DNA of 37,955 nucleotides. It comes from Ruminococcus sp. (lineage in GTDB: Bacteria > Bacillota > Clostridia > Oscillospirales > Ruminococcaceae). The position numbers were made by a program, and so were the translations under genes. Of the stretch, positions 2,344-20,132 are shown one piece after another. Position 1 is the stretch's first letter, and each line of letters opens with the position of its first letter. Location: assembly GCA_030531185.1 (NCBI GenBank), contig JAUNOG010000021.1, positions 1-37,955 of the forward strand, in the 5' to 3' direction. The notes below the pieces were generated by a model. The model was not told the DNA's origin. It saw nothing but the letters and a program-made list of their open reading frames with translations, and searched no databases.

Positions 2344-4917
2344 TTGTTAAGTATAAATCGCACCTTGATTTCATTTGCGGCGGCTTTTTTCATTGCCGTT
2401 ATGCTGATGCCGGCAAGGTGCTTTGCTTTTGATTATGCGAAAATTACGGGCTCTACTGCAACGGGTGCGCAGATAACGGGCTACGATACCGCGATACAAG
2501 TGGACGTTACCGACTTCGGCGCAGACCCTACGGGTAATAAGGACTCATACAAGGCTATTCAGAGCGCGCTGTATTATGCGGTGGATAACGCCAGCGATAC
2601 GGTGCAGCTGAAGGTGGTCATTCCCGAGGGAACTTATATTATAAACCGCCCCTTGAAAATCTACTCAAATACATGGCTTTATATGAAGGGCGCGACCATT
2701 GTAAGAAATTTCAACGTAGGCTTTATGTTCAGAAACGCTCTGCAAAACCCGTCGGGAGGCTATGACGGAGAACGCAATATCATTATCGAGGGCGGCTGTT
2801 TCGACGGAAATACAAATTCTGCGTCCACGCCGTTTTCAAATGTCCGTCTTGGACATATAAAAAATCTCTGGATAAACGGCGTGGAATTCCGCGATAATTA
2901 TAACGGACATCTTCTTGAGATCGGAGGAGCGCAGAATGTTACCATTGAAAACTGCACTTTCCACGAATATTACGGCGAGAAGGAAAAAGAAGCGATACAG
3001 CTTGACACTATGAACAATAAGGAGATCTTTGTTCATTTTGAGCCTTTTGACGATACTTCCTGCGACAATGTGGTCATCAGGAACAACAAGTTTTACGATC
3101 TGATGAGAGGTTTCGGCTCTCATTCGGCTACGGTGGGAGTGTACTATACAAATATACTGATTTCGGGAAACACATTTGAAAATATAACCTCTACCGCTAT
3201 GATTATGCAGAACTACAAGAACTGCCTGGTGGAGAATAACACGATGACTAATGTGGGAAACGGCATTGATTTCAAGTATATGACCCCTTTGGAATATTCG
3301 GGCTACAATGCTCCCGTTGCAGGTTGGGAAGGCATCAAAGACAGGATAAATGACAATGCCGACACCATTATCAGAAAGAATACCATTGACTGTAATGTGA
3401 CAAGCTATGTTCCCGACCCTTTTGGTATACAGATTTACGGACGTAAGCTTACAGGAAGTTATTATTTCGATTACGACTATAAAGTTGAGGGAGTGAAAAT
3501 CACTGATAATACGATAACTACGTCGGGCAGCGCCGTCATTCTTAACGATACCGGCGGCATTCAGGTCAAGTCCAATACTGTGAAATATGACAGTTCGGAG
3601 AATTATTATAAATCCGATTTGATAATTGTAAAGAATTCGACGGATACCGCCGTTCAGAGTAATAAGGTCAGCGATGGTTTTCAGAGCGGAATTTATGTGG
3701 GTGATACAAGCTCCAATGTGACGGTAAAGGATAATACCTGCACCTCGTCGGGGGCGTCGGGCATTTACGTTTCGATAAATTCGTCGGAAGTCACAGTAAG
3801 CGGAAATATAGTAAAAAAAGCGGGTTCTCACGGTATCAAAATCACAAAGGAGGCTGCTGCCGATATAAGCGAAAACACGGTTGAGGAAAGCGGCGGATAT
3901 GGCGTTATATTTACAGGGGGAACAGGCAGCGCCAAGAAAAATACTCTTGTTTCAAATAAAAAGGGCGGAGTTTACGCCGACAGCGGAGTTGAGGTCACAG
4001 TCAAGGAAAACACCCTGAAAAATAACGGCGGCTACGGAATTGCGGCTGCCGATAACGCAAAGATCAGAATAGGCTCCAACAGCTATGAGGGCAATTCGGA
4101 CGGCAAGCTTAACGCGTCGTCGGGCGGCACGTTATCTGTGGACGCGCCTAAGAAGCTTGCTGCCGACGGAATTTATGAGGATCAAGTTCAGCTTTCGTGG
4201 GAGAGCGTGTCCGAGGCGGAAGAGTACGCCGTTCTCCGCAGACTTGCGGGTTCGGAGGACGATTATGAGACTGTTGCGCAGGTCTACAGTACAAGCTATG
4301 TTGATGCGGGACTTTATTCTCATACAAAGTATGAATATAAGGTACAGGGCCTTGTAAATGCGGGAGAAACGCTCCATAGCGGAGTAAATTCCGACGCGTT
4401 GGAGGTACGTACAAAAGCGACTGTGGCGGACTGCACTACGGATCTGAAGCCGCAGGTCGCTTACAACGGCAAGGCGAGAGAACAGTCCTTCGGCGTTTAC
4501 TGCAATGGCGACAGGCTTGTGGAAGATGTCGATTACAAGGTAAAATATTACAACAACACCGCAGTGGGAAAGGCTACCGTTATAATCACGGGCTGCGGAC
4601 AATTTTGCGGGCTGAAAGAGTTGACCTTTGATATTGTTTTCTCAAATCAAATCACCGATATGTCCGAAAAAAGAAATACTGTTACAAGCTGCGCGGCAGA
4701 TATCGGCAGCGCATATGCCTCCGACAGATATCAGGTAAAGGTAATAGGATCAAATAAATTTGACAGCGGAGACGGCAATGAAAATATCGTTGTCAAAGGC
4801 GGACAGACATATATACAGATAATGCTTGAAAAAGTTAAACAGGAAAAGGCCTTGAAAATAACCTCCCGTCATATCAGGACTGTGGGCGGCGAGACTTTCA
4901 GAGGAATGTGGGTGTAA
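2344..4917 (+). CDS. Secreted right-handed beta-helix (pectate-lyase-superfamily) protein
   Basis: An 857-residue exoprotein. Residues 1-28 are a signal peptide (hydrophobic FAAAFFIAVMLMPA, probable cleavage near CFA-FD). Residues 52-80 carry the Pectate_lyase_3 entry motif (VDVTDFGADPTGNKDS.KAI). Residues about 140-590 are parallel beta-helix rungs, recognisable by repeated I.I..NT/N.I. ladders. A fibronectin type III domain follows (about 605-690), then a clostridial surface-protein repeat (about 700-770: VAYNGKA...DVDYKVKYYNNTAVGKATV) and a small C-terminal module. Such proteins bind, lyse or epimerise polysaccharides outside the cell; I see no decisive catalytic set. The start is TTG 2344, since later ATGs would remove the signal peptide. 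An ATG at 2338 is out of frame. Confidence 0.85.
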   Translation: MLSINRTLISFAAAFFIAVMLMPARCFAFDYAKITGSTATGAQITGYDTAIQVDVTDFGADPTGNKDSYKAIQSALYYAVDNASDTVQLKVVIPEGTYIINRPLKIYSNTWLYMKGATIVRNFNVGFMFRNALQNPSGGYDGERNIIIEGGCFDGNTNSASTPFSNVRLGHIKNLWINGVEFRDNYNGHLLEIGGAQNVTIENCTFHEYYGEKEKEAIQLDTMNNKEIFVHFEPFDDTSCDNVVIRNNKFYDLMRGFGSHSATVGVYYTNILISGNTFENITSTAMIMQNYKNCLVENNTMTNVGNGIDFKYMTPLEYSGYNAPVAGWEGIKDRINDNADTIIRKNTIDCNVTSYVPDPFGIQIYGRKLTGSYYFDYDYKVEGVKITDNTITTSGSAVILNDTGGIQVKSNTVKYDSSENYYKSDLIIVKNSTDTAVQSNKVSDGFQSGIYVGDTSSNVTVKDNTCTSSGASGIYVSINSSEVTVSGNIVKKAGSHGIKITKEAAADISENTVEESGGYGVIFTGGTGSAKKNTLVSNKKGGVYADSGVEVTVKENTLKNNGGYGIAAADNAKIRIGSNSYEGNSDGKLNASSGGTLSVDAPKKLAADGIYEDQVQLSWESVSEAEEYAVLRRLAGSEDDYETVAQVYSTSYVDAGLYSHTKYEYKVQGLVNAGETLHSGVNSDALEVRTKATVADCTTDLKPQVAYNGKAREQSFGVYCNGDRLVEDVDYKVKYYNNTAVGKATVIITGCGQFCGLKELTFDIVFSNQITDMSEKRNTVTSCAADIGSAYASDRYQVKVIGSNKFDSGDGNENIVVKGGQTYIQIMLEKVKQEKALKITSRHIRTVGGETFRGMWV

Positions 4918-4920
4918 GCT

Positions 4921-5415
4921 TTGACGAACAGGAATTTTAAAGTAAGAAAAATAATTTCCTCTGTGCTGTGTACCTGCTCTGCCGCTTTATTGGTCAAAGC
5001 TGTGTTTCCGATGTTTCAGGTATCGGGTGAGAGTATGAGCCCTGCTCTTGAGGATGGGGAGTTTATAATCTCCCGCAGATTTGCAAGAGTAAAGAGGGGA
5101 GATGTGGTGATTTTCCGACACGGCGGAAACCTGCTGATAAAACGAGTGGCGGCGACAGCGGGGGAGCGTGTTGAGATAACTTCCGAGGGTGTTTTCACAA
5201 TTGACGGTAAAGCTGTTAAAGAGCCTTACGCTCACGGGAAAATGGAAGAGATTTCGGTGAAAGTCCCCGAAAAATCCTATTTTCTTATGGGAGATAACCG
5301 CGTAGTGTCCGTTGACAGCCGTTCGGACAAGATCGGCTGCGTACATAAAAGCCGTATTTATTCAAAGGCGATACTGAGGATATATCCGTTTTCAAAAGCG
5401 GGCTTTATAGAATAG
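4921..5415 (+). CDS. lepB: Type I signal peptidase (S26A)
   Basis: A 164-residue membrane-anchored leader peptidase with one N-terminal membrane segment (about residues 10-31), the catalytic serine box SGESMSP (Ser38), the general-base lysine box LLIKRVAATAGE (Lys74), and the late family box MGDNR...DSRSDKIG. The start is a TTG only 3 nt after the upstream stop, with a weak ribosome site, suggesting translational coupling to the beta-helix gene; the next ATG would delete the anchor. The pairing hints that this copy may process the neighbouring exoprotein, but general housekeeping use is equally possible. A terminator follows. Confidence 0.93.
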   Translation: MTNRNFKVRKIISSVLCTCSAALLVKAVFPMFQVSGESMSPALEDGEFIISRRFARVKRGDVVIFRHGGNLLIKRVAATAGERVEITSEGVFTIDGKAVKEPYAHGKMEEISVKVPEKSYFLMGDNRVVSVDSRSDKIGCVHKSRIYSKAILRIYPFSKAGFIE

Positions 5416-7887: not shown

Positions 7888-7970
7888 TGATAAATACAGC
7901 TTTGCAACGCAAAATAATCACAGCAGGGAAAATTTATTGTCAAAGTTTATTAAATATTCATAAGTAACCC

Positions 7971-7998
7971 TTGACTAACAGGACTGATGTATGATAAT
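7971..7998 (+). promoter_or_regulatory. promoter for the DUF2325 gene
   Basis: TTGACT (7971-7976), 16 bp, GATAAT (7993-7998). The expected transcription start falls inside the palindrome at 8001-8030, an arrangement suited to repression. A weak extra operator-like half site (CTAACA) overlaps the -35. Confidence 0.65.
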
Positions 7999-8000
7999 AT

Positions 8001-8030
8001 ATATTCAGTTAGTAAGAACTAACTGAATAT
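8001..8030. promoter_or_regulatory. operator 1, 30-bp perfect palindrome
   Basis: Two 13-bp arms (ATATTCAGTTAGT and its exact complement) separated by AAGA. The core AGTTAGTAAGAACTAACT (8007-8024) fits the repeated motif RGTTAG-N6-CTAACY. It covers the expected transcription start of the DUF2325 gene. Confidence 0.8.
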
Positions 8031-8049
8031 ACTGAAAAGAGGTGACCTG

Positions 8050-8340
8050 ATGAGTGTTGTGATCGTGGGCGGAAACGACAGAATGGCTACAAGATACAAG
8101 GATATATGCAAGTCCTTTGACTGTAAGGCTAAGGTGTTTATAAAATACGCCACAAATTTTGATAAGAAGATAGGCAGTCCGGACCTTGCCGTTGTGTTTA
8201 CGGATACTGTGTCGCACAAGCTGCTTAACGGAGTTAATCAGAGAGCGGAAAAGCTGAATTTCCCTGTGGAGATATGCCGCAGTTCAAGCGTGTCCGCGCT
8301 GAAAAACGTTCTTAGTAAGTATTGCGCTTGCGCGGAATAA
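8050..8340 (+). CDS. DUF2325 protein in the iron locus
   Basis: A 96-residue cytoplasmic protein of the DUF2325 family. The N-terminal strand-turn VVIVGGNDRMATRYKDI and the later PDLAVVFTDTVSHKLLNGV...AEKLNFPVEICRSSSVSAL match the family pattern, which resembles half of a Rossmann-like fold. No enzymatic activity is established for the family. It uses the extended SD GAGGTGACCTG, in which GGTGA pairs with the far end of the anti-SD. Its promoter is overlaid by operator 1, so it is probably iron-regulated together with feo. The role is unknown. Confidence 0.8.
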   Translation: MSVVIVGGNDRMATRYKDICKSFDCKAKVFIKYATNFDKKIGSPDLAVVFTDTVSHKLLNGVNQRAEKLNFPVEICRSSSVSALKNVLSKYCACAE

Positions 8341-8355
8341 ATCTATTTTTATGAT
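8328..8355 (+). promoter_or_regulatory. candidate promoter for the DUF3793 gene
   Basis: TTGCGC (8328-8333), 16 bp, TATGAT (8350-8355), ending 4 bp before operator 2. The -35 is only a partial match. Confidence 0.4.
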
Positions 8356-8359
8356 ATAC

Positions 8360-8377
8360 GGTTAGCGAACGCTAACC
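8360..8377. promoter_or_regulatory. operator 2
   Basis: GGTTAGCGAACGCTAACC, perfect 8-bp arms around AA, immediately upstream of the DUF3793 RBS. It has the same 6-base gap between TTAG and CTAA as operator 1. Confidence 0.75.
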
Positions 8378-8391
8378 AAGAAGGAGTACCA

Positions 8392-8961
8392 ATGAGAAAC
8401 GTCGGATATAACGAGTTTGAAAAAATTCTTGCTTTTCATTCAAGTCCCGCAATGCTGGGAGTAAAGCCCGCAAGCCTTTTCAGCGTGACCGACACCGAAA
8501 GCGTCGGGGAGAGCATAAGCCGTTTCAACAGAAAGGCGGCGGTCAAAGGTTTAAAAATCCGCGAGCTGTGCTGTTTGAAAAACAGAAGGCTTTTACTGAT
8601 GTATAACGAAAAAGTCCTTGAACGTCATATGAATAATGAAAAAGTCCTCAGAATGTTTGGGAAATTCGGCTATGACGAAGATATGACCACGCAGCAGCGC
8701 ATTGATAGGCTTGCAGAGAAAATTGTCGGCAGCGGAGATTTTCCGCACGAGATAGGACTTTTTCTCGGTTATCCTGTGGAGGATATTCAGGGCTTTATCG
8801 ATAATAAGGGTGAAAATTATCTGCTTTGCGGCTACTGGAAGGTCTATTCCGACGAAGAAAGAGCAAAACGCATTTTTAACAGCTATAACAAATGCCGCAG
8901 CTATATGATAGGCAAGCTCAACAGCGGAGTTGACATTTACAAAGCTCTGAGAATATCGTAA
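8392..8961 (+). CDS. DUF3793 protein in the iron locus
   Basis: A 189-residue protein of the DUF3793 family found in anaerobic Firmicutes. The diagnostic block is FPHEIGLFLGYPVEDIQGFI followed by LLCGYWKVYSDEERAKRIFNSYNKCR near the C-terminus. It has no signal peptide or membrane segment. ATG 8392 follows AAGGAG by 7 bases. Family function is unestablished; co-location with feoAB and an operator directly before the gene argue for a role in iron or low-iron metabolism, which is inference. No terminator separates it from the feoA promoter region. Confidence 0.82.
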   Translation: MRNVGYNEFEKILAFHSSPAMLGVKPASLFSVTDTESVGESISRFNRKAAVKGLKIRELCCLKNRRLLLMYNEKVLERHMNNEKVLRMFGKFGYDEDMTTQQRIDRLAEKIVGSGDFPHEIGLFLGYPVEDIQGFIDNKGENYLLCGYWKVYSDEERAKRIFNSYNKCRSYMIGKLNSGVDIYKALRIS

Positions 8962-8971
8962 ATTTGCGAAA

Positions 8972-8989
8972 AGTTAAATATGACTAACT
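8972..8989. promoter_or_regulatory. operator 3
   Basis: AGTTAAATATGACTAACT; one mismatch (TTAA for TTAG) to the motif, with the same 6-base gap. It begins 11 bp after the DUF3793 stop codon. Confidence 0.6.
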
Positions 8990-9003
8990 AAATGCACAAA
9001 AAT

Positions 9004-9021
9004 AGTTATGATAAACTAACC
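9004..9021. promoter_or_regulatory. operator 4
   Basis: AGTTATGATAAACTAACC; the right half is perfect, the left half has TTAT. It starts 32 bp after operator 3 (about three helical turns). Confidence 0.55.
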
Positions 9022-9023
9022 AG

Positions 9024-9041
9024 AGTTTGTGCAGACTAACA
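9024..9041. promoter_or_regulatory. operator 5 (degenerate)
   Basis: AGTTTGTGCAGACTAACA, 20 bp after operator 4 (about two turns). The right half is good and the left half weak. It lies just upstream of the -35 at 9069. Confidence 0.5.
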
Positions 9042-9068
9042 AAAGTGAGGAAATATATACAAAAAGGG

Positions 9069-9097
9069 TTGACAAACCAAATAAATAGAGGTAAACT
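9069..9097 (+). promoter_or_regulatory. promoter for feoA-feoA-feoB
   Basis: TTGACA (9069-9074), 17 bp, TAAACT (9092-9097). Operator 6 begins 7 bp after the -10, over the expected start of transcription; operators 3-5 lie upstream. Confidence 0.7.
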
Positions 9098-9104
9098 TAT
9101 ATAT

Positions 9105-9122
9105 GGTTAGAAAATACTAACT
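9105..9122. promoter_or_regulatory. operator 6 at the feoA transcription start
   Basis: GGTTAGAAAATACTAACT, a full match to RGTTAG-N6-CTAACY. Confidence 0.75.
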
Positions 9123-9202
9123 GAGTTATACATATGAAACTTATTTTAAGTGATTTGTTTCTCAGCTAAGATATGACGCTCTGACCTCTATATCAAAAGA
9201 AT

Positions 9203-9220
9203 GGTTAGTTGCAGGTAACT
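9203..9220. promoter_or_regulatory. operator 7 in the feoA leader
   Basis: GGTTAGTTGCAGGTAACT, one mismatch (GTAA for CTAA), about 20 bp before the feoA start codon. Confidence 0.55.
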
Positions 9221-9240
9221 GACGGATTGGAGGAACAATG

Positions 9241-9450
9241 ATGCCGCTTACACTCGCAAATTTAGGCGAAGAAAATATGATTAAAAAGGTCGGCGGAAAT
9301 CCCGAAACAAGAAAATTTCTTGAAAATCTGGGATTTGTTGCAGGCAGTTCGGTGACGGTAGTCAACACTATGGGAGGAAATGTTATTGTGAACATTAAGG
9401 ACTCCCGTGTAGCCGTTTCAAAGGAAATGGCTGCGAAAATTATGGTATAA
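9241..9450 (+). CDS. feoA: FeoA-domain protein (first copy)
   Basis: A 69-residue SH3-like FeoA protein; FeoA is a cytosolic accessory of the FeoB ferrous iron transporter. The family shape is clear: MPLTLANLGEENMIKKVGG, then FLENLGFVAGSSVTVV and a final VAVSKEMAAKIMV strand. ATG 9241 sits 7 bases after GGAGG; the adjoining ATG at 9238 would be only 4 bases away, so I prefer the second, but either is possible. It is the first gene after the operator-controlled feo promoter and is followed by a structured 140-nt gap before the second copy. Confidence 0.92.
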   Translation: MPLTLANLGEENMIKKVGGNPETRKFLENLGFVAGSSVTVVNTMGGNVIVNIKDSRVAVSKEMAAKIMV

Positions 9451-9458
9451 GTAAATCA

Positions 9459-9571
9459 AGAGCCTGTTTTTATGGGACGTTGCGTATGTCCTCGGCGGAT
9501 TTTTTTGTCGGAACTGTACAGCAAAATTTGTATGAAAATACATATACAAAACTTTTGTAGGGACGGGCTCT
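9459..9571 (+). other. structured intergenic RNA between the two feoA genes
   Basis: AGAGCCTGTTTT (9459-9470) can pair with GGGACGGGCTCT (9560-9571), with 8 Watson-Crick and 4 G-U pairs. This encloses a GGAC/GTCC hairpin, a run of seven T (9500-9506), and a helix CAAAATTTGTAT (9522-9533) against ATACAAA plus TTTTG (9544-9557). It could be an attenuator or processing element that changes the ratio of the first feoA to the second feoA and feoB. No known riboswitch family is recognised. Confidence 0.4.
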
Positions 9572-9590
9572 ATATTTAAGGAGGAAGAAT

Positions 9591-9812
9591 ATGTCAACTT
9601 TAAGAGACGCAAAGGTCGGCGATACCGTTACAGTTAAAAAGCTCAGCGGCGCAGGCGCAGTCAAAAGAAGAATTATGGACATGGGTATCACAAAAGGCGT
9701 TGATATTTATGTAAGAAAGGTTGCTCCTTTAGGGGATCCTGTTGAAGTAACCGTAAGAGGCTACGAGCTTTCGCTGAGAAAAGCGGACGCTGAGATGATT
9801 GAAACGGTTTAA
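9591..9812 (+). CDS. feoA: FeoA-domain protein (second copy)
   Basis: A 73-residue SH3-like FeoA protein with the canonical layout: LRDAKVGDTVTVKKLSGAGAVKRRIMDMGITKG, V.VRKVAPLGDPVEVTVRGYELSLRKADAEMI. It resembles the usual FeoA more closely than its upstream partner, which belongs to the shorter clostridial type. ATG 9591 follows AAGGAGGAAGA, one of the strongest ribosome sites in the window. Two FeoA proteins ahead of FeoB is a known clostridial pattern; they probably act as different partners or stabilisers of the FeoB cytosolic domain. Confidence 0.95.
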   Translation: MSTLRDAKVGDTVTVKKLSGAGAVKRRIMDMGITKGVDIYVRKVAPLGDPVEVTVRGYELSLRKADAEMIETV

Positions 9813-9825
9813 TATTTTATTCACA

Positions 9826-9843
9826 AGTTAGCTTTAACTAATG
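9826..9843. promoter_or_regulatory. operator 8, between feoA and feoB
   Basis: AGTTAGCTTTAACTAATG: both tetranucleotide halves (TTAG, CTAA) are present with the 6-base gap. It lies 13 bp after the feoA stop and 21 bp before the feoB start. I see no clear promoter with it, so a roadblock effect or a relict site is possible. Confidence 0.55.
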
Positions 9844-9864
9844 TGAGGAAAGGAATTGATTTAG

Positions 9865-12036
9865 ATGGAGTTGAAAATAGCTCTTGCGGGAAACCCTAAC
9901 TGCGGTAAAACAACTCTTTTCAACGCGCTGACAGGCTCAAATCAGTTTGTGGGAAACTGGCCCGGCGTTACGGTTGAAAAGAAAGAGGGTAAATATAAGG
10001 GCAATAAGGAGGCAATAATCACAGACCTCCCGGGTATATATTCGCTTTCGCCTTACACGCTTGAGGAAGTTGTTGCGAGAAATTACCTTATAAACGAGCG
10101 TCCCGACGCTATCCTGAACATTATTGACGGTACGAACCTTGAAAGAAATCTGTATCTCACGACACAGCTTGTGGAGCTTGGAATTCCTGTAGTCGTAGCT
10201 GTCAATATGATGGACGTTGTTGAAAAGAACGGCGATAAGATCAATACCGAACAGCTTGCTAAGGAGCTTGGCTGCCAGGTGTGCAAGATCTCCGCACTTA
10301 AAGGCAAAGGAATTACCGAGGCTGCCGATCTGGCTATCGCAGCGGCTAAGAAGAAAGAGGCTGTGATCCCTCAGCACTCGTTTAACGGAGTTGTTGAGCA
10401 CGCTATTGCGCATATTGAGGAGGCTTTCCTTCATGATGTTGAAGAGGCAAAGCAGAGATGGTATGCTATCAAGATCTTTGAAAGAGATGAAAAGGTTCTT
10501 GAACAGCTCAATATGTCCGACGAGGTGAGGGCTCATATTGAGAACGATATCGTTGCCGCTGAAAAGGAACTGGACGACGACTCGGAAAGCATTATCACAA
10601 ACGAAAGATATATTTACATAGCTTCGATCATCAAGGGCTGTCTTAAAAAGAAAAATCAGGGCGGAATGACAATCTCGGATAAAATCGACAGAATTGTAAC
10701 AAACAGATTTTTGGCTCTGCCGATCTTTGCGGTCGTAATGTTCATTGTTTATTACGTTTCGGTTTCCACAGTGGGAAGCTGGGCTACCGACTGGACTAAC
10801 GATGTTTTCGTCGACGAATGGTGTCAAGGCGGAGCTACGAAGCTGCTCGAGAAAATCGGCTGTGCAGACTGGCTTCAGGGACTTATAGTTGACGGCGTTA
10901 TTGCCGGCGTGGGCGCGGTTATCGGCTTTGTTCCTCAGATGCTTGTACTCTTTATATTCCTTGCGTTCCTTGAGAGCTGCGGATATATGGCGAGAGTTGC
11001 TTTCGTTATGGACAGAATTTTCAGAAAGTTCGGTCTTTCGGGTAAATCATTTATTCCTATGCTTATCGGCACAGGCTGCGGTATCCCCGGAGTTATGGCG
11101 TCGAGAACCATTGAAAACGAGCGCGACCGCCGTATGACGGTTATGACAACCACATTTATCCCCTGCGGAGCAAAGCTCCCTATCATCGGACTTATCGCAG
11201 GCGCGCTGTTTGACAACGCAGGCTGGGTAGCGACTTCCGCTTACTTTATCGGAGTTGCGGCGATCGTCATTTCAGGTATTATGCTTAAAAAGACAAAGAT
11301 GTTCGCGGGAGATCCTGCACCGTTCGTAATGGAACTTCCTGCATATCATCTGCCGACAGTCGGAAATGTTCTCCGTTCAATGTGGGAGCGCGGCTGGTCG
11401 TTCATCAAGAAGGCGGGCACAGTTATTCTTCTTTCCACTATCGTTCTCTGGTTCTTACAGGGCTTCGGCGTTGAAAACGGTTCGTTCGGTATGGTCGAGG
11501 ATATGGATAACTCCCTTATCGCAAAGGTCGGCAGCGTATTTGCTTGGATATTCAAGCCTCTTGGCTGGGGCGAATGGAAGGCTGCTGTTGCCGCAGTAAC
11601 CGGTCTTATTGCTAAGGAAAACGTAGTAGGCACGTTCGGCGTACTCTTCCATTTCGGCGGAGAGCTTTCGGAAAACGGCGACGAGATCTGGGGCACTCTT
11701 TCAACATACTTCACACAGCTTTCAGCGTTCTCGTTCCTTATTTTCAATCTTCTCTGTGCGCCTTGCTTTGCGGCAATGGGAGCTATCAAGAGAGAAATGA
11801 ACAACGGCAAGTGGACAGCGTTTGCAATTACATATCAGTGCGTTTTCGCTTATGCTATCTCACTCTGCGTATATCAGATCGGGGCGCTCTTCACAAGCAC
11901 TGTTGAGGTTAACGTTATCGGACTTATCTGCGCTTTAGCAGTAGTTGCATTTATTATTTATATGCTTGTAAGACCTTACAAGGAAGCAGATAAGCTGGAG
12001 GTCAAGATTAAAACCTCTGAAAAGGTTCATGCATAA
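9865..12036 (+). CDS. feoB: Ferrous iron transport protein B (GTPase-permease)
   Basis: A 723-residue FeoB. The N-terminal G domain has G1 GNPNCGKTT (9-17), the G2 threonine in WPGVTVE, G3 DLPG (54-57), G4 NMMD (114-117; NxxD type) and G5 SALKG (143-147). A helical NFeoB guanine-dissociation-inhibitor-like region follows, then the membrane part from about residue 285, with two Gate repeats around the FeoB core (LESCGYMARVAF...GTGCGIPG and VTGLIAKENVVGTFG). Length is normal for the Clostridia type. It imports Fe(II) across the cytoplasmic membrane. ATG 9865 follows GGAAAGGA. It is co-transcribed with both feoA genes and followed by the Cys-rich FeoB-associated gene. Confidence 0.98.
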   Translation: MELKIALAGNPNCGKTTLFNALTGSNQFVGNWPGVTVEKKEGKYKGNKEAIITDLPGIYSLSPYTLEEVVARNYLINERPDAILNIIDGTNLERNLYLTTQLVELGIPVVVAVNMMDVVEKNGDKINTEQLAKELGCQVCKISALKGKGITEAADLAIAAAKKKEAVIPQHSFNGVVEHAIAHIEEAFLHDVEEAKQRWYAIKIFERDEKVLEQLNMSDEVRAHIENDIVAAEKELDDDSESIITNERYIYIASIIKGCLKKKNQGGMTISDKIDRIVTNRFLALPIFAVVMFIVYYVSVSTVGSWATDWTNDVFVDEWCQGGATKLLEKIGCADWLQGLIVDGVIAGVGAVIGFVPQMLVLFIFLAFLESCGYMARVAFVMDRIFRKFGLSGKSFIPMLIGTGCGIPGVMASRTIENERDRRMTVMTTTFIPCGAKLPIIGLIAGALFDNAGWVATSAYFIGVAAIVISGIMLKKTKMFAGDPAPFVMELPAYHLPTVGNVLRSMWERGWSFIKKAGTVILLSTIVLWFLQGFGVENGSFGMVEDMDNSLIAKVGSVFAWIFKPLGWGEWKAAVAAVTGLIAKENVVGTFGVLFHFGGELSENGDEIWGTLSTYFTQLSAFSFLIFNLLCAPCFAAMGAIKREMNNGKWTAFAITYQCVFAYAISLCVYQIGALFTSTVEVNVIGLICALAVVAFIIYMLVRPYKEADKLEVKIKTSEKVHA

Positions 12037-12071
12037 TTTACATACAAACTGAAATTTAAAGGAGGATAATT

Positions 12072-12245
12072 ATGGGCAGCGTACTTGGTACTGCGATAGT
12101 TTTGATAGTTCTGGCTGCAATGGTGACAGCGATAATAGTACATCTTGTGAAAGATAAAAAAGCGGGAAAAAGCTCCTGCGGCTGTAACTGCGGCTGCTGC
12201 CCGAATTCGTCCGCCTGCCACGGAAATCATTCTGCGGCAAAGTGA
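12072..12245 (+). CDS. FeoB-associated Cys-rich membrane protein
   Basis: A 57-residue peptide: one N-terminal transmembrane helix (about residues 4-25), a short basic stretch (KDKKAGK), then a cysteine cluster CGCNCGCC and a further CH. This is the pattern of the FeoB_associated family, small proteins encoded just after feoB in Firmicutes and probably analogous in position to FeoC. It likely sits in the membrane with its cysteines on the cytosolic side, where it could handle iron or sense redox; this is inference. ATG 12072 follows GGAGG by 6 bases. The 3' end lies about 20 nt before the regulator start. Confidence 0.9.
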   Translation: MGSVLGTAIVLIVLAAMVTAIIVHLVKDKKAGKSSCGCNCGCCPNSSACHGNHSAAK

Positions 12246-12265
12246 CACAGACGGGAGGGGACAGC

Positions 12266-12640
12266 GTGCTTACTAATTCGCAGAAAAAATATCTCTTTGC
12301 GATTTATATTCTGGGGCAGGACGGCAAGCCTGTTAAATCTACGTCGGTTGCGGATTTTCTGGGGGTTTCAAAGGCAAGTACAGTGAAAATGACCCAGCGG
12401 CTCATTGATGAAAAATACATTATTAAAGAGCCGTACAGAGAAATACGTCTTACTCCTCAGGGCATTAAAGCGGCTAACGAGCTTTTTACGCCCAGCGTAA
12501 TTTTGCAGAACTTTCTTCAGAACAAGGTAGGCGTTAGTGAAGAAAATGCCCGTGAGGACAGTATTACCATAGCGTCGCAGGTTTCCCGTGAGGCGCTGGA
12601 AAAGCTTGTACAGTACAGTCTTGCTATTTCGGCTAATTAA
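12266..12640 (+). CDS. DtxR/MntR-family transcriptional regulator lacking canonical metal ligands
   Basis: A 124-residue regulator. Residues 1-65 form the winged helix of the iron-dependent repressor family (recognition segment FLGVSKASTVKMTQRLIDEKYI, wing REIRLTPQGIKAA), closest by eye to MntR. Residues 70-118 form the dimerisation helices; there is no SH3 domain. Aligned by eye to Bacillus MntR, the six metal ligands D8, E11, H77, E99, E102 and H103 correspond to K8, F11, S77, I100, A103 and S104, so the classical metal sites appear lost. It uses GTG 12266 behind GGAGGGG; the earlier in-frame GTG at 12242 overlaps the upstream gene. It is the probable binder of the operators in this locus. 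Confidence 0.85.
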   Translation: MLTNSQKKYLFAIYILGQDGKPVKSTSVADFLGVSKASTVKMTQRLIDEKYIIKEPYREIRLTPQGIKAANELFTPSVILQNFLQNKVGVSEENAREDSITIASQVSREALEKLVQYSLAISAN

Positions 12641-12678
12641 ATGCTATCACATGATCCACTTCAATAATATAATCGCGC

Positions 12679-12707
12679 AAATCCCGTTTCTCTTTGAGAC
12701 GGGATTT
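12679..12707 (+). terminator. hairpin after the regulator gene, possible terminator
   Basis: A 12-bp stem, AAATCCCGTTTC (12679-12690) with GAGACGGGATTT (12696-12707), one G-U pair and a 5-nt loop. The following sequence lacks a T-run (only ATTTATG), so termination may be weak or the hairpin may act as an RNA stabiliser. Confidence 0.5.
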
Positions 12708-12720
12708 ATGCTGAACACCA

Positions 12721-12738
12721 GGTTAGACTAAACTAACC
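12721..12738. promoter_or_regulatory. operator 9, downstream of the regulator gene
   Basis: GGTTAGACTAAACTAACC, a full match to the motif. It is bracketed by TATGCTGA (12707-12714) and its complement TCAGCATA (12755-12762), with a third copy of TATGCTGA at 12826-12833. It lies about 140 bp before the ABC transporter promoter. No promoter directly next to it was convincing. Confidence 0.65.
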
Positions 12739-12875: not shown

Positions 12876-12904
12876 TTGACAAACTGCAATATATTTGATA
12901 TAAT
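12876..12904 (+). promoter_or_regulatory. consensus promoter for the ABC transporter
   Basis: TTGACA (12876-12881), 17 bp, TATAAT (12899-12904) with a TGA extended -10. Confidence 0.85.
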
Positions 12905-12952
12905 GCACATATGAACATTTATTCATATAATAAATTGACTGGAGGAAAAAAT

Positions 12953-13651
12953 ATGTTTCTTGAAATCAGCGGAATAAAAAAGCACTTCGGTGAGGACGAA
13001 AGCAGAGTAGAGGTACTCAAAGGTGTGGACATATCCATTGAAAAAGGGGAGATATGCGTACTGCTGGGACCGTCGGGTTCGGGTAAATCTACGCTGCTCA
13101 ATATTATAGGCGGTATCGATAACGCCGACAGCGGATATATTTCCATTAACGGCGAGAAAACGGGAGATATGAATGAAAAGGCTTTGACCCTTTACAGAAG
13201 AAAGCATCTGGGCTACATATTCCAGATGTACAATCTTATCCCTAACCTCAATATCAAAGAAAATGTGGAGGTCGGCGCATATCTCAGCGATAATCCTCTG
13301 GACGTTGACGAGCTTTTGAAAACTCTGGGACTTTACGAGCACAGACACAAGCTGCCAAATCAGCTTTCTGGAGGACAGCAGCAGAGGACGGCTATCGGCA
13401 GAGCCATTGTTAAAAATCCCGATATTCTTCTTTGCGACGAGCCTACGGGCGCGCTTGATTACAACACATCGAAGGAGATACTTAAGCTTATTGAGGACGT
13501 CAATAAAAAGTACGGCAATACGGTTATTATGGTTACGCATAACGACGCTATCAAAAATATGGCGGACAGAGTTGTCAAGCTGAGAGACGGTATGGTGAGA
13601 AAGAATTATCTCAATGAGACAAAAATTCCTGCCGCCGAGCTTGACTGGTAA
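12953..13651 (+). CDS. ABC transporter ATP-binding protein (MacB/LolD/BceA type)
   Basis: A 232-residue ATPase. Walker A is GPSGSGKST (about residues 43-51), the Q-loop is GYIFQMYNLIPNLN, the signature is LSGGQQQRTAIGRA, Walker B is ILLCDEPTGALD and the switch histidine lies in VMVTHN. This subfamily works with FtsX-like permeases as mechanotransmission pumps or lipoprotein/antimicrobial-peptide exporters rather than as importers. ATG 12953 follows GGAGG by 7 bases; the upstream in-frame ATG at 12911 lacks an RBS. It is followed 15 nt later by its permease. An iron operator lies upstream, but its link to this gene is unproven. Confidence 0.93.
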   Translation: MFLEISGIKKHFGEDESRVEVLKGVDISIEKGEICVLLGPSGSGKSTLLNIIGGIDNADSGYISINGEKTGDMNEKALTLYRRKHLGYIFQMYNLIPNLNIKENVEVGAYLSDNPLDVDELLKTLGLYEHRHKLPNQLSGGQQQRTAIGRAIVKNPDILLCDEPTGALDYNTSKEILKLIEDVNKKYGNTVIMVTHNDAIKNMADRVVKLRDGMVRKNYLNETKIPAAELDW

Positions 13652-13666
13652 TCGGAGGGCTGTGCT

Positions 13667-15919
13667 ATGAAAAATCCGCTTAACAAACGACTGCCAAGAG
13701 AGCTGAAATCTGAGTTCGGAAAGTATCTGGTCATCTTCCTGTTCTATGTTATCGCAATATCTATGGTTTCGGGATTTCTTGTTGCAGACAACAGTTTGAT
13801 AAAGGCTTACGATGAAAGCTTTGAAAAATACAACATTGAGGACGGCAACTTTGAATATTATGAAAAGGCTGAAAATGCCGTACTGGAGGAAATAGAAAAA
13901 GAGGGCGTTACGCTTTACGAAAACTTCTATAAGGAAGAAGAGACCGAGGACTTTGAAAGTACGCTGAGAATTTTCGGCGAGCGCAAAGAGGTCGACAGAG
14001 TTTGCCTTATGGACGGAGAAATGCCTGCGGCTGATGACGAAATAGCTATCGACAGACTTTACGCTCTTAACCATAAGCTGGAGATCGGCGACAGCATTAC
14101 CGCAGGTGAGTACACAATGAAGATCAGCGGTATCGTTGCTTTATCCGATTATTCCGCACTGTTTCAGAATTCCTCGGATCTGATGTTCGACAACGATAAA
14201 TTCGGTGTGGGCGTTATGACGGACGCCGGATTTGAGGCGGTGAGAGACAACCATATCCATTACAGCTATTCGTGGGTTTACGATAACAAGCCGGAGGACG
14301 ACATAGAAGCCAAGGAAATGTCCGAGGACTTGATGTCTGTACTGTCACAGTATGGCGTATTGACTAATTTCCTGCCCGAATACTGCAATCAGGCAATAGT
14401 ATTCACAGGCGAAGATATGGGCGGAGATAAGGCGATGATCTCAGCTTTTCTGTACATAGTAGTTATTATTCTCGCTTTTGTTTTTTCTATTACCGTAGGC
14501 AATACTATCCTCAAGGAGGCTACGGTCATCGGTACGTTGAGAGCCTCGGGCTATTCCAGGGGCGAGCTGGTAAGGCATTATATGATAGTGCCTATGCTGG
14601 TCCTGCTTGTCGCCGCGGTTATCGGAAATGTACTCGGATATACGGTTTTTGAGAAAGTCTTTTCAAATACGTATTACGGCAGCTACAGTCTGCCTACCTA
14701 CGAGGTGCTGATAAACGCCGAGGCGTTTGTTCTTACAACGGTTATCCCGATGATAATAATGTTCGTTATTCTCATCATAACGCTTACCTCAAAATTGAGA
14801 CTTTCTCCTCTCAGATTTATCAGACGCGACCTGAGCAAGCGCGGAAAGAAAAAAGCGTTCAGGCTGAATACGAAGATCAAAATAATGACGCGTTTCAGAC
14901 TGAGAGTGATATTCCAGAATATTTCAAACTATGTAACTGTTTTTGTGGGAGTATTCTTTGCAAACTTCATTCTGATGTTCGGCTTTGTATTCCCGCCGAT
15001 GCTCGATAAATTTGAGGACGACATAACCTCAAATGTGCTGGCGGAATATCAGTATGTGCTTAAAGCTCCTGCGGAGACAAGCTCAGACAATGCGGAAAGG
15101 TTTGTTCTCGGTTCGCTTTCCACAACATACGAAAACCGAAAGAGCGAGACGGTATCGGTTTACGGCATAAGCTCGGACAGCAAGTATGTGGAGCTAACTG
15201 CCGATAAGAACAAAATAGATATTTCCACAGCATACCGAGACAAGTACGGAGTGGACATAGGAGATACGATCACTCTTAAAGAAAGCTACGGCGACAAGGA
15301 ATACGAATTCACAGTAGGAGGATATTACGATTATCCCGCTACGATAGCCGTATTTATGGATAAGGAATTTTTTAACGAAACATTCGAATATGAGGCTGAT
15401 TATTTCAACGCATATTTCAGCGATGAGGAAATAACGGACATCGACGATATGTACATAGCGACTAAGATCACCGAGGACGATCTTACAAAAACCTCCAGAC
15501 AGCTTATGCGTTCAATGGGTTCTATGATGTATCTGTTTACATTCTTCGGAGTAATTATGTTTATGCTGATAATTTTCCTTCTGGCAAAAATTATTATCGA
15601 GAAGAATTCTCAGTCCATTTCAATGACGAAAATTCTCGGTTACAATCACAAAGAGATCAACAGTCTGTATATTCATTCTACAACCATTGTAACTCTGCTC
15701 TCGATTATCTTGACTTTGCCTTTGTGCAACGCAATTCTGAAATATGTGTGCATAGCGGTATTTTCGGATTATTCAGGCTGGCTGGCATACTATATGCCTC
15801 CATCGACATATTTAAAAGTAGCAATAATGGGCGTTGTATCATACGCTGCGGTGGCTTTCCTGCTTATGAAAAAGGTAAGGAAAATTCCTATGAGCGACGC
15901 TCTGAAAAATGTAGAATAG
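13667..15919 (+). CDS. ABC transporter permease with two FtsX domains
   Basis: A 750-residue membrane protein. TM1 is at about 18-40, followed by a large extracytoplasmic region (about 45-255). The first FtsX block has helices near 262-280, 305-330 and 350-375; another helix is near 420-443, then a second extracytoplasmic region (about 450-615) and the second FtsX block near 621-645, 675-700 and 725-742. The motifs EATVIGTLRASGYSRGEL and SQSISMTKILGYNHKEI are the coupling-helix segments typical of MacB/FtsX permeases. ATG 13667 follows GGAGGG. It forms a pair with the ATPase; the exported substrate is unknown. A strong terminator follows. Confidence 0.9.
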   Translation: MKNPLNKRLPRELKSEFGKYLVIFLFYVIAISMVSGFLVADNSLIKAYDESFEKYNIEDGNFEYYEKAENAVLEEIEKEGVTLYENFYKEEETEDFESTLRIFGERKEVDRVCLMDGEMPAADDEIAIDRLYALNHKLEIGDSITAGEYTMKISGIVALSDYSALFQNSSDLMFDNDKFGVGVMTDAGFEAVRDNHIHYSYSWVYDNKPEDDIEAKEMSEDLMSVLSQYGVLTNFLPEYCNQAIVFTGEDMGGDKAMISAFLYIVVIILAFVFSITVGNTILKEATVIGTLRASGYSRGELVRHYMIVPMLVLLVAAVIGNVLGYTVFEKVFSNTYYGSYSLPTYEVLINAEAFVLTTVIPMIIMFVILIITLTSKLRLSPLRFIRRDLSKRGKKKAFRLNTKIKIMTRFRLRVIFQNISNYVTVFVGVFFANFILMFGFVFPPMLDKFEDDITSNVLAEYQYVLKAPAETSSDNAERFVLGSLSTTYENRKSETVSVYGISSDSKYVELTADKNKIDISTAYRDKYGVDIGDTITLKESYGDKEYEFTVGGYYDYPATIAVFMDKEFFNETFEYEADYFNAYFSDEEITDIDDMYIATKITEDDLTKTSRQLMRSMGSMMYLFTFFGVIMFMLIIFLLAKIIIEKNSQSISMTKILGYNHKEINSLYIHSTTIVTLLSIILTLPLCNAILKYVCIAVFSDYSGWLAYYMPPSTYLKVAIMGVVSYAAVAFLLMKKVRKIPMSDALKNVE

Positions 15920-16010: not shown

Positions 16011-17174
16011 ATGGCGACTATCGATACTGTAAAGTGCATAAGTATAAGCTACAAAAATGCCGGCGAAAATATAAGAGGACGGCTTACTTTCGACGGTGAA
16101 ACTGCGGAGAAATTCATTCGGTCGGCGGCGGTCGGACTGATAACCGAGTGCGTTCTGCTCTGTACATGCAATCGCACCGAGGTGTATTTCTGCACAGCGG
16201 ATATGAGCGGCGACGGCAGGGAAATAATCACAAATTTTCTGTCCGACTTCAGCGGAATACCCGCAGAGGAGCTTTCTGAATATATCAGATTTTATCAGGG
16301 ACGGAGCGCTCTCAGGCATTTGTACAGGGTGGCGAGCGGAATAGAATCAATGGTCATAGGCGAGGACGAAATTCTCGGACAGCTAAAGAATGCGTACTCA
16401 GCCGCCAAGACGGCGGGGACGGTTTCCTATAAGCTTAATCTTGCCTTTCAGGGAGGAGTATCCTGCGCTAAGAAAATCAAAACGGACACGCTTATTTCAA
16501 AGACCTCGGTTTCAACTGCGACGCTTGCGGCGAACGAGGCGGCTAAGCTGTCCGACAGAGTAAGCGCGTTAGTTATCGGCGGTACCGGAAAAATCGGTTC
16601 TACGGTGATAAAAAATCTTCTTTCCCATAAAAATGTGAAGGTGTACGCAACGGCTAGAAATCATAACGGAGATTTCACGACCGAATTTAACAGTACAAAA
16701 ATATGTACAATAGATTATGATGACAGATATGAATATATTAATAAATGCGATTGTGTGATAAGCGCAACGTCAAGTCCGCACTATACAGTGACGGCTAACA
16801 ATGTGCGGAAAAACTGTACAGACGAAAAGCACAGGCTTTTTATAGACCTTGCTGTCCCGTCGGATATCGAGCCGTCGGTATCGGAAACAACGGGAGCAAA
16901 ATACATCGGAATTGACCGCTTTGAAGAGCTTGCAAGGGAGAATAATGAGATCAAGCTAGACAGCGTTTCGGCAGCAAAGGAGATCATTGAAGTCCATCTT
17001 CAGGAGCTTGAAAAGGAGCTTGCGCTGCACGATTTTCTTCCCCAAATGCAGTCGGCTAAGACCGCCGCAGAAAAAATGGGCTTTGAAAAGGTGATCTATC
17101 GGATGAGGAACAGGCTGTCCGCAGACGAATTTACGGCTATGCTTGGAGCATTGAAAGAATTGGAGGAAAAATAA
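16011..17174 (+). CDS. hemA: Glutamyl-tRNA reductase
   Basis: A 387-residue enzyme that reduces glutamyl-tRNA to glutamate-1-semialdehyde with NADPH, the first committed step of C5-pathway tetrapyrrole synthesis. The catalytic cysteine lies in LLCTCNRTEVY (Cys53). The second family box is YRVASGIESMVIGEDEILGQLK, the NADPH site is ALVIGGTGKIGSTV, and residues about 330-387 form the C-terminal dimerisation helices. It is slightly shorter than the roughly 420-residue enzymes of enterobacteria. ATG 16011 follows GGGTGAT. It leads a six-gene operon with overlapping or abutting genes. Confidence 0.97.
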   Translation: MATIDTVKCISISYKNAGENIRGRLTFDGETAEKFIRSAAVGLITECVLLCTCNRTEVYFCTADMSGDGREIITNFLSDFSGIPAEELSEYIRFYQGRSALRHLYRVASGIESMVIGEDEILGQLKNAYSAAKTAGTVSYKLNLAFQGGVSCAKKIKTDTLISKTSVSTATLAANEAAKLSDRVSALVIGGTGKIGSTVIKNLLSHKNVKVYATARNHNGDFTTEFNSTKICTIDYDDRYEYINKCDCVISATSSPHYTVTANNVRKNCTDEKHRLFIDLAVPSDIEPSVSETTGAKYIGIDRFEELARENNEIKLDSVSAAKEIIEVHLQELEKELALHDFLPQMQSAKTAAEKMGFEKVIYRMRNRLSADEFTAMLGALKELEEK

Positions 17175-17813
17175 GTGGCATATTTTCCTTTTTTTGTTGA
17201 TATCAGCGGGGCGGAGTGTCTCGTTGTCGGCGGCGGCAGAGTTGCGCTGAGAAAAATTCAAAAGCTTATGATTTTCGGCGCAAAAATTCGAGTGGTAGCT
17301 CCTGAAATATGCGAGGAAATTTCTCAAATGCGATTAGAGATATACCGCAGGCGCTTTGAGCCTGCCGACCTTGACAATGCGGATTTTGTTATTTCCGCGA
17401 CCGACGACGGGAATGCGAGCAGGGAGATCTTTGAATTGTGCAGAGAACGCAGAATTCCCGTTAATACAGTTGACGATCAGGAACGGTGCAGTTTTATTTT
17501 CCCCGCTCTGGCAATCAGCGGAGACACGACCGTAGGAATAAGCACAGGCGGGAAAAGTCCGCTGTTTGCCTCTCGTCTGCGTAAGCTTATTGAAGAACAG
17601 CTGGACGATCGGCTCGGAGAAACAGGGAAACTGCTGGGTGAAATTCGTCCATATGTAAAGGGAAATTTTCCCGACGAGCGATCCTCAAAAGATGCAATGA
17701 ATGTAATTTTCGATTTGTGTATGAGCTGCGGTCAAATTCCCGCAAAGCAGGAAGTGTACAAAATATTGGACGACTTAAGGAGCGGAAATGAAAATCAGAA
17801 TAGGGACACGTAA
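17175..17813 (+). CDS. Precorrin-2 dehydrogenase / sirohydrochlorin ferrochelatase-like protein
   Basis: A 212-residue Met8p/CysG-N type protein (also called SirC, CbiK-independent YlnF or CysG(B) in different genomes). The Rossmann site is CLVVGGGRVALRK (about residues 15-27), followed by NADFVISATDD, VNTVDDQERCSFIFPA and the sulfite-branch motif ISTGGKSPLFASRLR. It oxidises precorrin-2 to sirohydrochlorin with NAD+; members with the conserved aspartate may also insert iron, and I cannot settle that by eye. GTG 17175 directly follows the hemA stop with GGAGG upstream. Its end overlaps hemC by 26 nt. It marks the operon as siroheme-directed. Confidence 0.9.
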   Translation: MAYFPFFVDISGAECLVVGGGRVALRKIQKLMIFGAKIRVVAPEICEEISQMRLEIYRRRFEPADLDNADFVISATDDGNASREIFELCRERRIPVNTVDDQERCSFIFPALAISGDTTVGISTGGKSPLFASRLRKLIEEQLDDRLGETGKLLGEIRPYVKGNFPDERSSKDAMNVIFDLCMSCGQIPAKQEVYKILDDLRSGNENQNRDT

Positions 17814-18651
17814 GAGCAGACTGGCAATGGCTCAGACAAAAATGGCGGAAAATGCGCTGAAAAAAGCGTTCCCCGAAATTGAAACGGAGATAGTTCATAT
17901 AACTACCAAGGGAGATAAAATACTCGATAAGCCGCTGAACGCATTAGGCGGAAAAGGCGTGTTTACGGGAGAAATTGAGAGAGCCTTGCTTTGCGGAGAA
18001 ATAGATATGGCTGTTCATTCCGCAAAGGATCTGCCCGTTTTTCTTGCGGACGGACTTGAAATTTCGGCAGTTTTGCCCAGAGGAAATTATCGGGACGTAC
18101 TTGTGACCCTGCCTGATTTTTCAATAGATAAAAGCTGTAAAATGTTTATCGGAACGGGCAGTATACGCCGCCGCGAGGGATTTTCCCCGCTGTATCCAAA
18201 TGCGGCATTCGGAGACATCAGGGGAAACGTTGACACCCGTATCCGAAAGCTTAAAAACGGCGAATTTGACGGTATAATTCTAGCCGCCGCAGGACTTGAA
18301 CGTCTGGATATTACAGAGGACAGCGGTTTGAATTTTACTTACTTTGACTATATGGATTTTCTGCCTGCGCCCTGCCAAGGAATAATTGCGATAGAGTGCG
18401 CAAAGAACAGCGAGGCTGCTAAAACAGTACAAAAAATTACACACTTTGAGACGGAGCTTTGTTTCAGGGCGGAACGCGAGATCATCAGACTTACGGGCGG
18501 GGACTGTTCTACCCCGCTGGGAGCGTATTCGTTTATCCGTGACGGACTTATAAATGTGTATGCGTCCAAAAATATGGACAGAATTATTTCGGGACAAGCA
18601 TCCGCCGAAAAGGCAGAAATTCTTGCAAGGGAGCTGGTGTCACAGCTATGA
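17788..18651 (+). CDS. hemC: Hydroxymethylbilane synthase (porphobilinogen deaminase)
   Basis: A 287-residue enzyme joining four porphobilinogens into hydroxymethylbilane. Motifs include IGTRKSRLAMAQ, HITTKGDKI, VHSAKDLP, the arginine-rich GTGSIRRRE and the dipyrromethane-cofactor cysteine in GGDCSTPLGAY (Cys240). It is a little short of the usual 300-310 residues at the C-terminus. ATG 17788 lies inside the end of the preceding gene behind AAGGAG, and its stop overlaps the next start (ATGA), so translation is coupled along the operon. Confidence 0.97.
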   Translation: MKIRIGTRKSRLAMAQTKMAENALKKAFPEIETEIVHITTKGDKILDKPLNALGGKGVFTGEIERALLCGEIDMAVHSAKDLPVFLADGLEISAVLPRGNYRDVLVTLPDFSIDKSCKMFIGTGSIRRREGFSPLYPNAAFGDIRGNVDTRIRKLKNGEFDGIILAAAGLERLDITEDSGLNFTYFDYMDFLPAPCQGIIAIECAKNSEAAKTVQKITHFETELCFRAEREIIRLTGGDCSTPLGAYSFIRDGLINVYASKNMDRIISGQASAEKAEILARELVSQL

Positions 18652-20132
18652 ACGGTAAAGGCAGGGTAATTCTTATCGGCGCGGGCTGCGGTCGGTACGA
18701 CCTGATAACGCTCCGAGGTATCAATGCTCTTAAGGAATGTGATACGGTAGTTTACGACAGTCTGATCGATGAAAGACTGCTGGATTTTTGTCCGAAGAAT
18801 GCAGAAAAAATATGCGTCGGCAAACGTGCGGGGCGCCACTCGGCAAATCAGGAAAACATCAATAAACTGCTCGCAGAAAAAGCTTTGCAGGGCAGAACGG
18901 TTGCACGTCTTAAAGGCGGCGATCCTTTCGTTTTCGGCAGGGGCGGAGAGGAAATACAGTTTTTGCAAAAGTACAATATTATGTACAGCATTATACCGGG
19001 GATTTCGTCGTCGACAGCGGCGGCAGAGCTTGCGGGAATACCTGTTACTCACAGGGATATAAGCCGAAGCTTTCATGTAATAACGGGTCATACGTCCAAG
19101 GATATTCTGTGTGAAAATTTGGACAGCTATGCCAAACTTGACGGTACGCTTGTATTTTTAATGGGACTGAGCAATCTTGAGGGAATAGCCGAAGGACTTA
19201 TTCAAAACGGTATGAGTGGAGACGTTCCCGCCGCAGTCATAAGCAAGTGTGAAAGTCCAAATCAACGGACAGTTAGGGCAAGGCTGTGTGATATATCCAA
19301 TGCGGTAAAGCGTGAACGGCTTGAACCTCCCGCAGTTATCGTTGTGGGTGATACGGCGGATTTTGATTTTTCTCCGTCGTACAAATTGCCTTTGGAGAAT
19401 ATTTCCGTTGCTGTAACGTCAACAGCCAAAACCTCGGAAAAGCTGATAAAGCTCCTTGAAAAAGAGGGCGCATACGCTCGCCGTTTATGCGGCTTGGAGG
19501 TTCGTGAGATTTGTGAAAATCCTGCGTTTGATGATGCATTGAACAATGTTTGCGAATACGATTGGTTAGTGTTTACCAGTCCCAACGGAGCGGAATTTTT
19601 TCTTGACAGACTTCGCAGGCAGAGATTTGATGTACGAAAATTAGGACAGATAAAGCTTGCGGCAATAGGCGGAGGAACAGCTGAAATACTGGAAAGTTTC
19701 GGGCTATATCCCGAGCTTGTCCCGAACGAATTCACCACGGAATGTCTCGCAAAAACTCTTGCGGAGCAGGTAAGTACGGAGGAAAAAATCCTGATTTTGC
19801 GTTCTGCCGATGGTTCGCCGCGCTTGACGGAAATCCTTTCCGAAAGGGGAGTTTCATATAACGATATTCACCTCTATGAGCCTGTTTATTCCGAGGGTGA
19901 AAACCCATTTCAGGCGGAGTACGATTATCTGATTTTTACCAGCGCAAGCGGAGTGCGGAACTTTTTTAAATCAGGTCACACCGTTGGTGATGAAACCAAA
20001 ATAATATGTATCGGCAGAATAACCGCCGACACTTTAAAAGAGTACAATATTTCGGACTTTATGATACCCGAGGAATATTCCGCAGAGGGTATCGTAAATC
20101 TGATCAAGGAGGAAGAAAATGCGAAGATTTAG
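18648..20132 (+). CDS. cobA-hemD: Fused uroporphyrinogen-III C-methyltransferase and uroporphyrinogen-III synthase
   Basis: A 494-residue bifunctional protein. Residues 1 to about 245 are the SAM-dependent methyltransferase CobA/SUMT ([57 protein letters not shown]), which makes precorrin-2. Residues about 250-490 are HemD ([52 protein letters not shown]), which cyclises hydroxymethylbilane. This fusion is well known in Clostridia and sends the product straight to siroheme or corrinoids. The gene overlaps hemC by 4 nt and hemB by 14 nt. Confidence 0.95.

Follow-up and report, generated by a model that had tools for sequence, protein, structure and literature searches.

How does a gut Ruminococcus-type bacterium switch its ferrous-iron uptake genes? 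The Feo locus studied here suggests that it probably does so through nine DtxR-like sites. The locus lies in a stretch of 37,955 nucleotides from Ruminococcus sp., referred to as the window. On the plus strand it encodes a DUF2325 protein (8050..8340), a DUF3793 protein (8392..8961), two FeoA proteins (9238..9450 and 9591..9812, the latter feoA2), FeoB (9865..12036), a FeoB-associated Cys-rich membrane protein (12072..12245), the DtxR-like protein P0001 (12242..12640), and an ABC ATPase with an FtsX-type permease (12911..15919). The control of iron in Ruminococcus, an abundant gut group, appears to be uncharted, and a full-text literature search, judged by titles and abstracts, returned no paper on this regulon, its box, or a ligand-free paralog. 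DtxR represents a textbook regulator family, to which a metal-blind member within an iron locus would add a novel feature. The box and its spacings would also allow regulon predictions to be tested in many anaerobes that are so far unstudied.

Nine boxes in the Feo locus

The initial annotation had listed nine copies of an 18-bp palindrome, RGTTAG-N6-CTAACY, with four full matches. All nine were recovered at the positions given, and those at 8007..8024, 8360..8377, 9105..9122, and 12721..12738 proved exact. The boxes at 8972..8989, 9004..9021, and 9203..9220 carry one mismatch. Two mismatches were found at 9024..9041 and 9826..9843, the latter having the TTAG-N6-CTAA core intact. According to the ORF list of the window, all nine boxes are intergenic, as had been claimed.

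The first exact box (8007) is located at the DUF2325 promoter, the −10 element of which ends at 7998 or 8000, and the second (8360) stands just before the DUF3793 gene. The 8972 and 9004 boxes lie upstream of feoA, and the weak 9024 box follows the latter at 20 bp; a similar tandem spacing of 19–20 bp was seen at two related loci (L065 and L075). A promoter-like TTGACA-17-TAAACT sequence, identified by consensus match only, precedes feoA (9069..9097, plus strand), and the exact 9105 box falls in the region of the start site. The 9203 box comes 98 bp after this start box and precedes the ribosome-binding site of feoA. The 9826 box separates feoA2 from feoB; several relatives also have a box just before feoB (e.g., L119, L234, L236, L240, and L242).

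The last exact box (12721) lies downstream of the DtxR-like gene and ahead of the ABC operon. The assertion that the boxes lie over or near promoters was borne out for 8007 and 9105, which start 7–9 bp past the end of a promoter-like −10 element, and is doubtful for 12721. The consensus promoter that serves the next ABC operon (12876–12904) begins 155 bp after the start of this box, and a weaker promoter-like match (12646–12673) ends 48 bp ahead of the box. The segment 12646–12738 contains this promoter-like match, a terminator-like hairpin (by eye), and the box, all before the ABC operon, whose own perfect consensus promoter has no box. In relatives (L065, L234, L235, L238, and L239), kin of the ABC ATPase and the FtsX-type permease adjoin feo operons that carry a box. 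Tetrapyrrole genes are situated downstream of the Feo locus (16011–22343), encoding glutamyl-tRNA reductase, porphobilinogen deaminase, uroporphyrinogen methylase/HemD, and a class-III aminotransferase; no box with up to two mismatches was detected among them.

The start-site boxes would give a 6-bp stem in the mRNA, so the palindrome might work at the RNA level, with a hairpin at the transcript's 5′ end. We consider this highly improbable and rejected it. That transcript does not include the boxes located some 100 bp upstream of the promoter, the letters of the box are fixed, the mismatched halves at 8972, 9004, and 9203 are uncompensated, and an RNA family search gave no match here.

Statistical support for the boxes

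The window was compared with 60 dinucleotide shuffles. Four exact boxes were counted against a mean of 0.0 and a largest value of 0, and three one-mismatch boxes against a mean of 0.2. The two-mismatch boxes (9024, 9826, and one at 1242 outside the locus) numbered three, compared with a mean of 3.1; thus, counting alone lends no support to 9024 and 9826. Looser searches of the window gave no excess over the shuffles, either at up to three mismatches (34 vs. a mean of 37.5) or for the TTAG-N6-CTAA core at up to one mismatch (10 vs. a mean of 18.7). Therefore, the outer RG and CY bases hold much of the signal. Genome-wide, no excess was obtained at up to two mismatches (76, compared with 127 for the backward control pattern).

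A weight matrix was constructed from 219 sites with at most one mismatch in the fetched loci of other genomes. All nine boxes scored above every window position outside the locus, the lowest being 9024 (10.6, compared with 5.2 for the best outside position), for a matrix whose training sites were chosen by the same consensus and came largely from feo and DtxR loci. The weaker match proposed at 7963 scored 4.3, a value reached at two places outside the locus, and it was discarded as a box.

The initial annotation had regarded a similar density of the motif elsewhere as an argument against a dedicated operator array. We found a concentration instead: four of the 12 exact boxes in the genome occur within 4.8 kb of 2.48 Mb.

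Boxes elsewhere in the genome and in relatives

The assembly (2.48 Mb, 121 contigs, 87% complete) contains 12 exact boxes, while the backward pattern yielded none. In addition to the four in the window, five are on contig C64, one is on C44, where it adjoins a TetR gene, and two are at the end of C121. The genes on C64 encode a P-type ATPase, a TetR protein, ABC proteins, a methyltransferase, a Shp-type heme-binding protein, a periplasmic binding protein, the FecCD permease, an ABC ATPase, and the DtxR-family protein P0002. One C64 box (11920) is inside a predicted ATPase ORF, and another (40964) is 130 bp upstream of enolase. A second feoB (C21) and pyruvate:ferredoxin oxidoreductase (C112) are each preceded by a one-mismatch box. 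A search of this genome for Fur-family proteins gave none.

The named nearest relatives of the locus protein belong to Ruminococcus (38 loci, including R. bicirculans 80/3 and R. albus; one distant Leucobacter match); the related-locus search with a single protein as the query returned no relative. The exact box was detected in 53 of the 61 genomes searched and in all 29 genomes of the genus, with 1–19 copies each. The backward control gave 0–2 hits per genome across the 61, and its count equalled that of the box in one of them (G035, two and two). Four genomes (G031, G041, G044, and G059) have a DtxR match and no exact box. At one related locus (L185 of G043, 4259–5274), a flavodoxin gene follows the boxed DUF3793 gene, which fits an iron-starvation role for DUF3793. 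The literature search on DUF2325 and DUF3793 returned nothing useful.

DtxR-family paralogs

This genome encodes three complete DtxR-family proteins (P0001, P0002, and P0003), all of them short two-domain types of 126–157 residues. Their ligand positions were compared among 87 DtxR-family proteins gathered from the loci around such genes, and the metal ligands of MntR were taken to be D8, E11, H77, E99, E102, and H103. P0001 retains the PF01325 winged-helix domain (40.6 bits, cut-off 26), and its PF02742 metal-binding and dimerisation domain scored 25.5 bits against a cut-off of 27. It has K, F, S, I, A, and S at the six ligand positions, and no Asp, Glu, or His occupies any of these positions in the 20 members of its clade (P0001 and 19 relatives). 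A literature search on ligand-free DtxR proteins returned nothing useful.

P0002 (L022, 5566–5946) is encoded on C64 beside heme-uptake genes and has an incomplete ligand set (D, K, N, C, E, and H). The same residues were seen in nine of the ten members assigned to its clade by score, the tenth (L151) being an outlier. The clade was found in only nine of the 29 genus genomes, namely this one and eight further Ruminococcus-group genomes, and P0002 was therefore rejected as the general regulator.

P0003, encoded on C97, carries N, E, H, C, E, and H, of which five are canonical (Glu, His, Cys, Glu, and His). Its first position is Asn, where MntR has Asp8 and DtxR has Met10, and its fourth-position Cys corresponds to Cys102 of DtxR. 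All 57 members of the clade preserve E-H-x-E-H; the fourth residue is Cys in 56 of them and E in one. In a quick tree built on few columns, with long branches flagged and two rows left out, the P0001 and P0002 clades each formed one branch (support 92 and 91, respectively, both under the 95 mark).

The distribution of the paralogs bears on the initial proposal that one DtxR-family protein encoded in the locus coordinates the whole locus. Genes of the P0003 clade were found in 26 of the 29 genus genomes and were not found in G001, G010, and G011 (85, 90, and 70% complete, respectively). P0001-clade genes occur in 14, and the other 15 still carry 1–19 exact boxes. In six relatives at the order or family level (G036, G039, G042, G049, G051, and G055), feo and a canonical DtxR gene (M/D-E-H-C-E-H) are transcribed divergently, separated by a box, and in two genomes (G032 and G034) the region contains a canonical gene together with one of the P0001 type. 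A box is present within 400 bp upstream of 13 of the 20 P0001-clade genes, seven of the nine P0002-clade genes, and 11 of the 57 P0003-clade genes; the P0003 gene of this genome has none within that distance.

The findings support a DtxR-type operator and a single iron regulon that covers the locus, in line with the proposal. They do not support P0001 as the iron sensor. P0001 has lost its metal-binding residues, which suggests that another regulator probably senses iron, and the canonical paralog P0003 is likely the better candidate. P0001 could still bind the boxes without metal sensing, considering how often they precede the genes of its clade. We regard it as unlikely that P0001 itself, metal-free or with another signal, is the protein acting at the boxes. 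Its retained winged helix, its place in the locus, and the upstream boxes speak for such a role, but 15 of the 29 genus genomes keep the boxes without P0001, the boxes also occur in order relatives with canonical paralogs only, and one genome with no P0001-type gene found (G028) retains the full DUF2325–DUF3793–feo array, including a distance of 101 bp between boxes.

Alternatively, the boxes could be bound by a regulator from a different family, with the DtxR genes only as neighbours. Two drafts (G043 and G053, 97% complete) possess five exact boxes each at iron genes, and neither they nor G001, which is less complete and also boxed, showed a DtxR-family match over the Pfam cut-off. Since G043 and G053 are drafts, the DtxR gene could be missing from the assemblies. 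The box spacing equals that of the IdeR half-site (PMC8464063, excerpt), and canonical DtxR genes diverge from boxed feo in the six relatives above, which makes a different family quite improbable. For P0003, the few upstream boxes in its clade and the boxed genomes G043 and G053 without a DtxR match leave the assignment likely rather than certain.

Box spacing and the composite element

The distances between consecutive boxes from 8972 to 9203 are 32, 20, 81, and 98 bp, and 9004 is 101 bp from 9105. The window thus has a spacing of about 100 bp and not a 34-bp ladder. Among the 186 distinct pair distances below 400 bp in the fetched loci, peaks appeared at 34–35 and 100–104 bp. Adjacent pairs up to 160 bp apart (n = 90) were spaced by 33–36 bp in 13 of 67 cases in the genus and in six of 23 outside it, and by 97–104 bp in 26 of the 67 genus pairs.

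Two exact boxes 26–56 bp apart were found in 118 of 394 order genomes, compared with none for the backward control. The spacing prediction, set beforehand, held in unseen genomes. Of 75 listed pairs, 72 came from outside the first 61 genomes (60 genomes, 40 genera, and 7 families), and 42 of these 72 were at 33–36 bp, against a uniform expectation of 9.3; 22 were at exactly 34 bp. When only the first listed pair of each genus was considered, 22 of 40 were at 33–36 bp. Three boxes in a row at 33–34 bp were observed in G352, G400, and G342. By eye, several 34–35 bp pairs consist of a start-site box and a downstream box, and others flank TATAAT; promoter geometry may thus account for some of the regularity.

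The box spacing is quantised, which is new here. In the genus, the feoA start box has a conserved companion about 100 bp away, as counted in the same 29 genomes where this spacing was first noticed rather than in a hold-out. We initially considered that this upstream box depends on P0001 or on the half-degenerate P0002; G028, having neither, keeps the 101-bp distance, and the idea was dropped. Graded or cooperative repression, suggested earlier for the 8972–9220 cluster, is plausible given that the spacings are conserved across relatives.

The 9004 box is part of a composite element (8993..9033), in which it is centred between the perfect inverted arms TGCACAAA (8993–9000) and TTTGTGCA (9026–9033), 101 bp before the feoA start box. 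For boxes with a partner at 90–112 bp, at least one TGYACA/TGTRCA arm within 20 bp was found in 19 of 76 cases and both in nine, using an arm pattern picked after the sequences were inspected. Among the 155 boxes lacking a partner at this distance, the values were four and zero; for random positions, they were 1.3% and 0.01%. Symmetrical TGCACA...TGTGCA arms around the ~100-bp box were also noted in L122, L125, L127, L129, L130, L137, L236, and L237. The arms are possibly the site of a second factor.

Proposed mechanism

On balance, we think it probable that the boxes are one-dimer operators of an iron-activated DtxR/IdeR-type repressor, with P0003 as the most likely sensor and P0001 as a metal-blind paralog. 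The repressor would control an iron regulon, of which the Feo locus would be the densest part. When iron is available, dimers would occupy the start-site boxes of the DUF2325 gene and feoA, together with the boxes before the DUF3793 gene and feoB, and the bound dimers would obstruct RNA polymerase. The additional boxes, some 100 bp to either side of the feoA start box, may steepen or secure the repression via dimer–dimer contact. P0003 would sense iron, and the metal-blind P0001 may tune the array.

A bolder reading is tentative and, in our judgement, rather doubtful. An order-wide iron regulon would have its DtxR-type boxes on a 34-bp ladder (in the genus, with a second box at about 100 bp), which would lead to a higher-order complex of defined form, in contrast to the MntR array with its 19-bp pitch. 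The ~100-bp TGCACA...TGTGCA composite element would recruit a second factor, and the metal-blind paralog of the Feo locus would be a partner or an antagonist of the iron-sensing one.

Comparison with known systems

The initial annotation had related the boxes to the TTAG-N6-CTAA arrangement of the DtxR box, and this spacing indeed equals that published for the one-dimer IdeR half-site (PMC8464063, excerpt). The one-dimer IdeR site is given there as TTAGGNNNNCCTAA with the consensus TTAGG-N4-CCTAA, and the full 19-bp box takes two dimers. The actinobacterial IdeR/DtxR systems share with the present one this spacing and the association with iron genes (same excerpt). TTAG-N6-CTAA is exact in five of the nine boxes, and the N6 spacer is fixed in all of them. 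Unlike IdeR, which has inner G/C bases, the boxes here have a fixed outer G and C (RGTTAG...CTAACY). Among 142 exact sites from other genomes, the fraction with an inner G after TTAG is 0.07, so these sites do not follow TTAGG-N4-CCTAA. An overlapping second TTAG...CTAA site, as in the 19-bp two-dimer box, does not show around the same 142 sites, whose flanking positions hold at most 0.11 bits.

Four dimers of B. subtilis MntR bind at mneP on 18-bp sites that are 1 bp apart (PMC11275975, preprint, excerpt). The likeness lies in several 18-bp sites, weak and strong, over one promoter, an arrangement taken as cooperative in that excerpt. The MntR pitch is 19 bp, whereas only the 9004/9024 pair (20 bp) is similar here; the relatives peak at 34 bp, and the genus also at about 100 bp. 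SloR of S. mutans has cooperative sites (PMC12096823, excerpt), and it resembles the present case as a DtxR-family regulator with multiple palindromes in a metal-uptake promoter. In SloR, a C-terminal FeoA domain has been implicated in contacts (same excerpt), while P0001–P0003 have the short two-domain form. The system would work like IdeR, MntR, and SloR, and it differs from them in the fixed outer bases and the 34-bp spacing.
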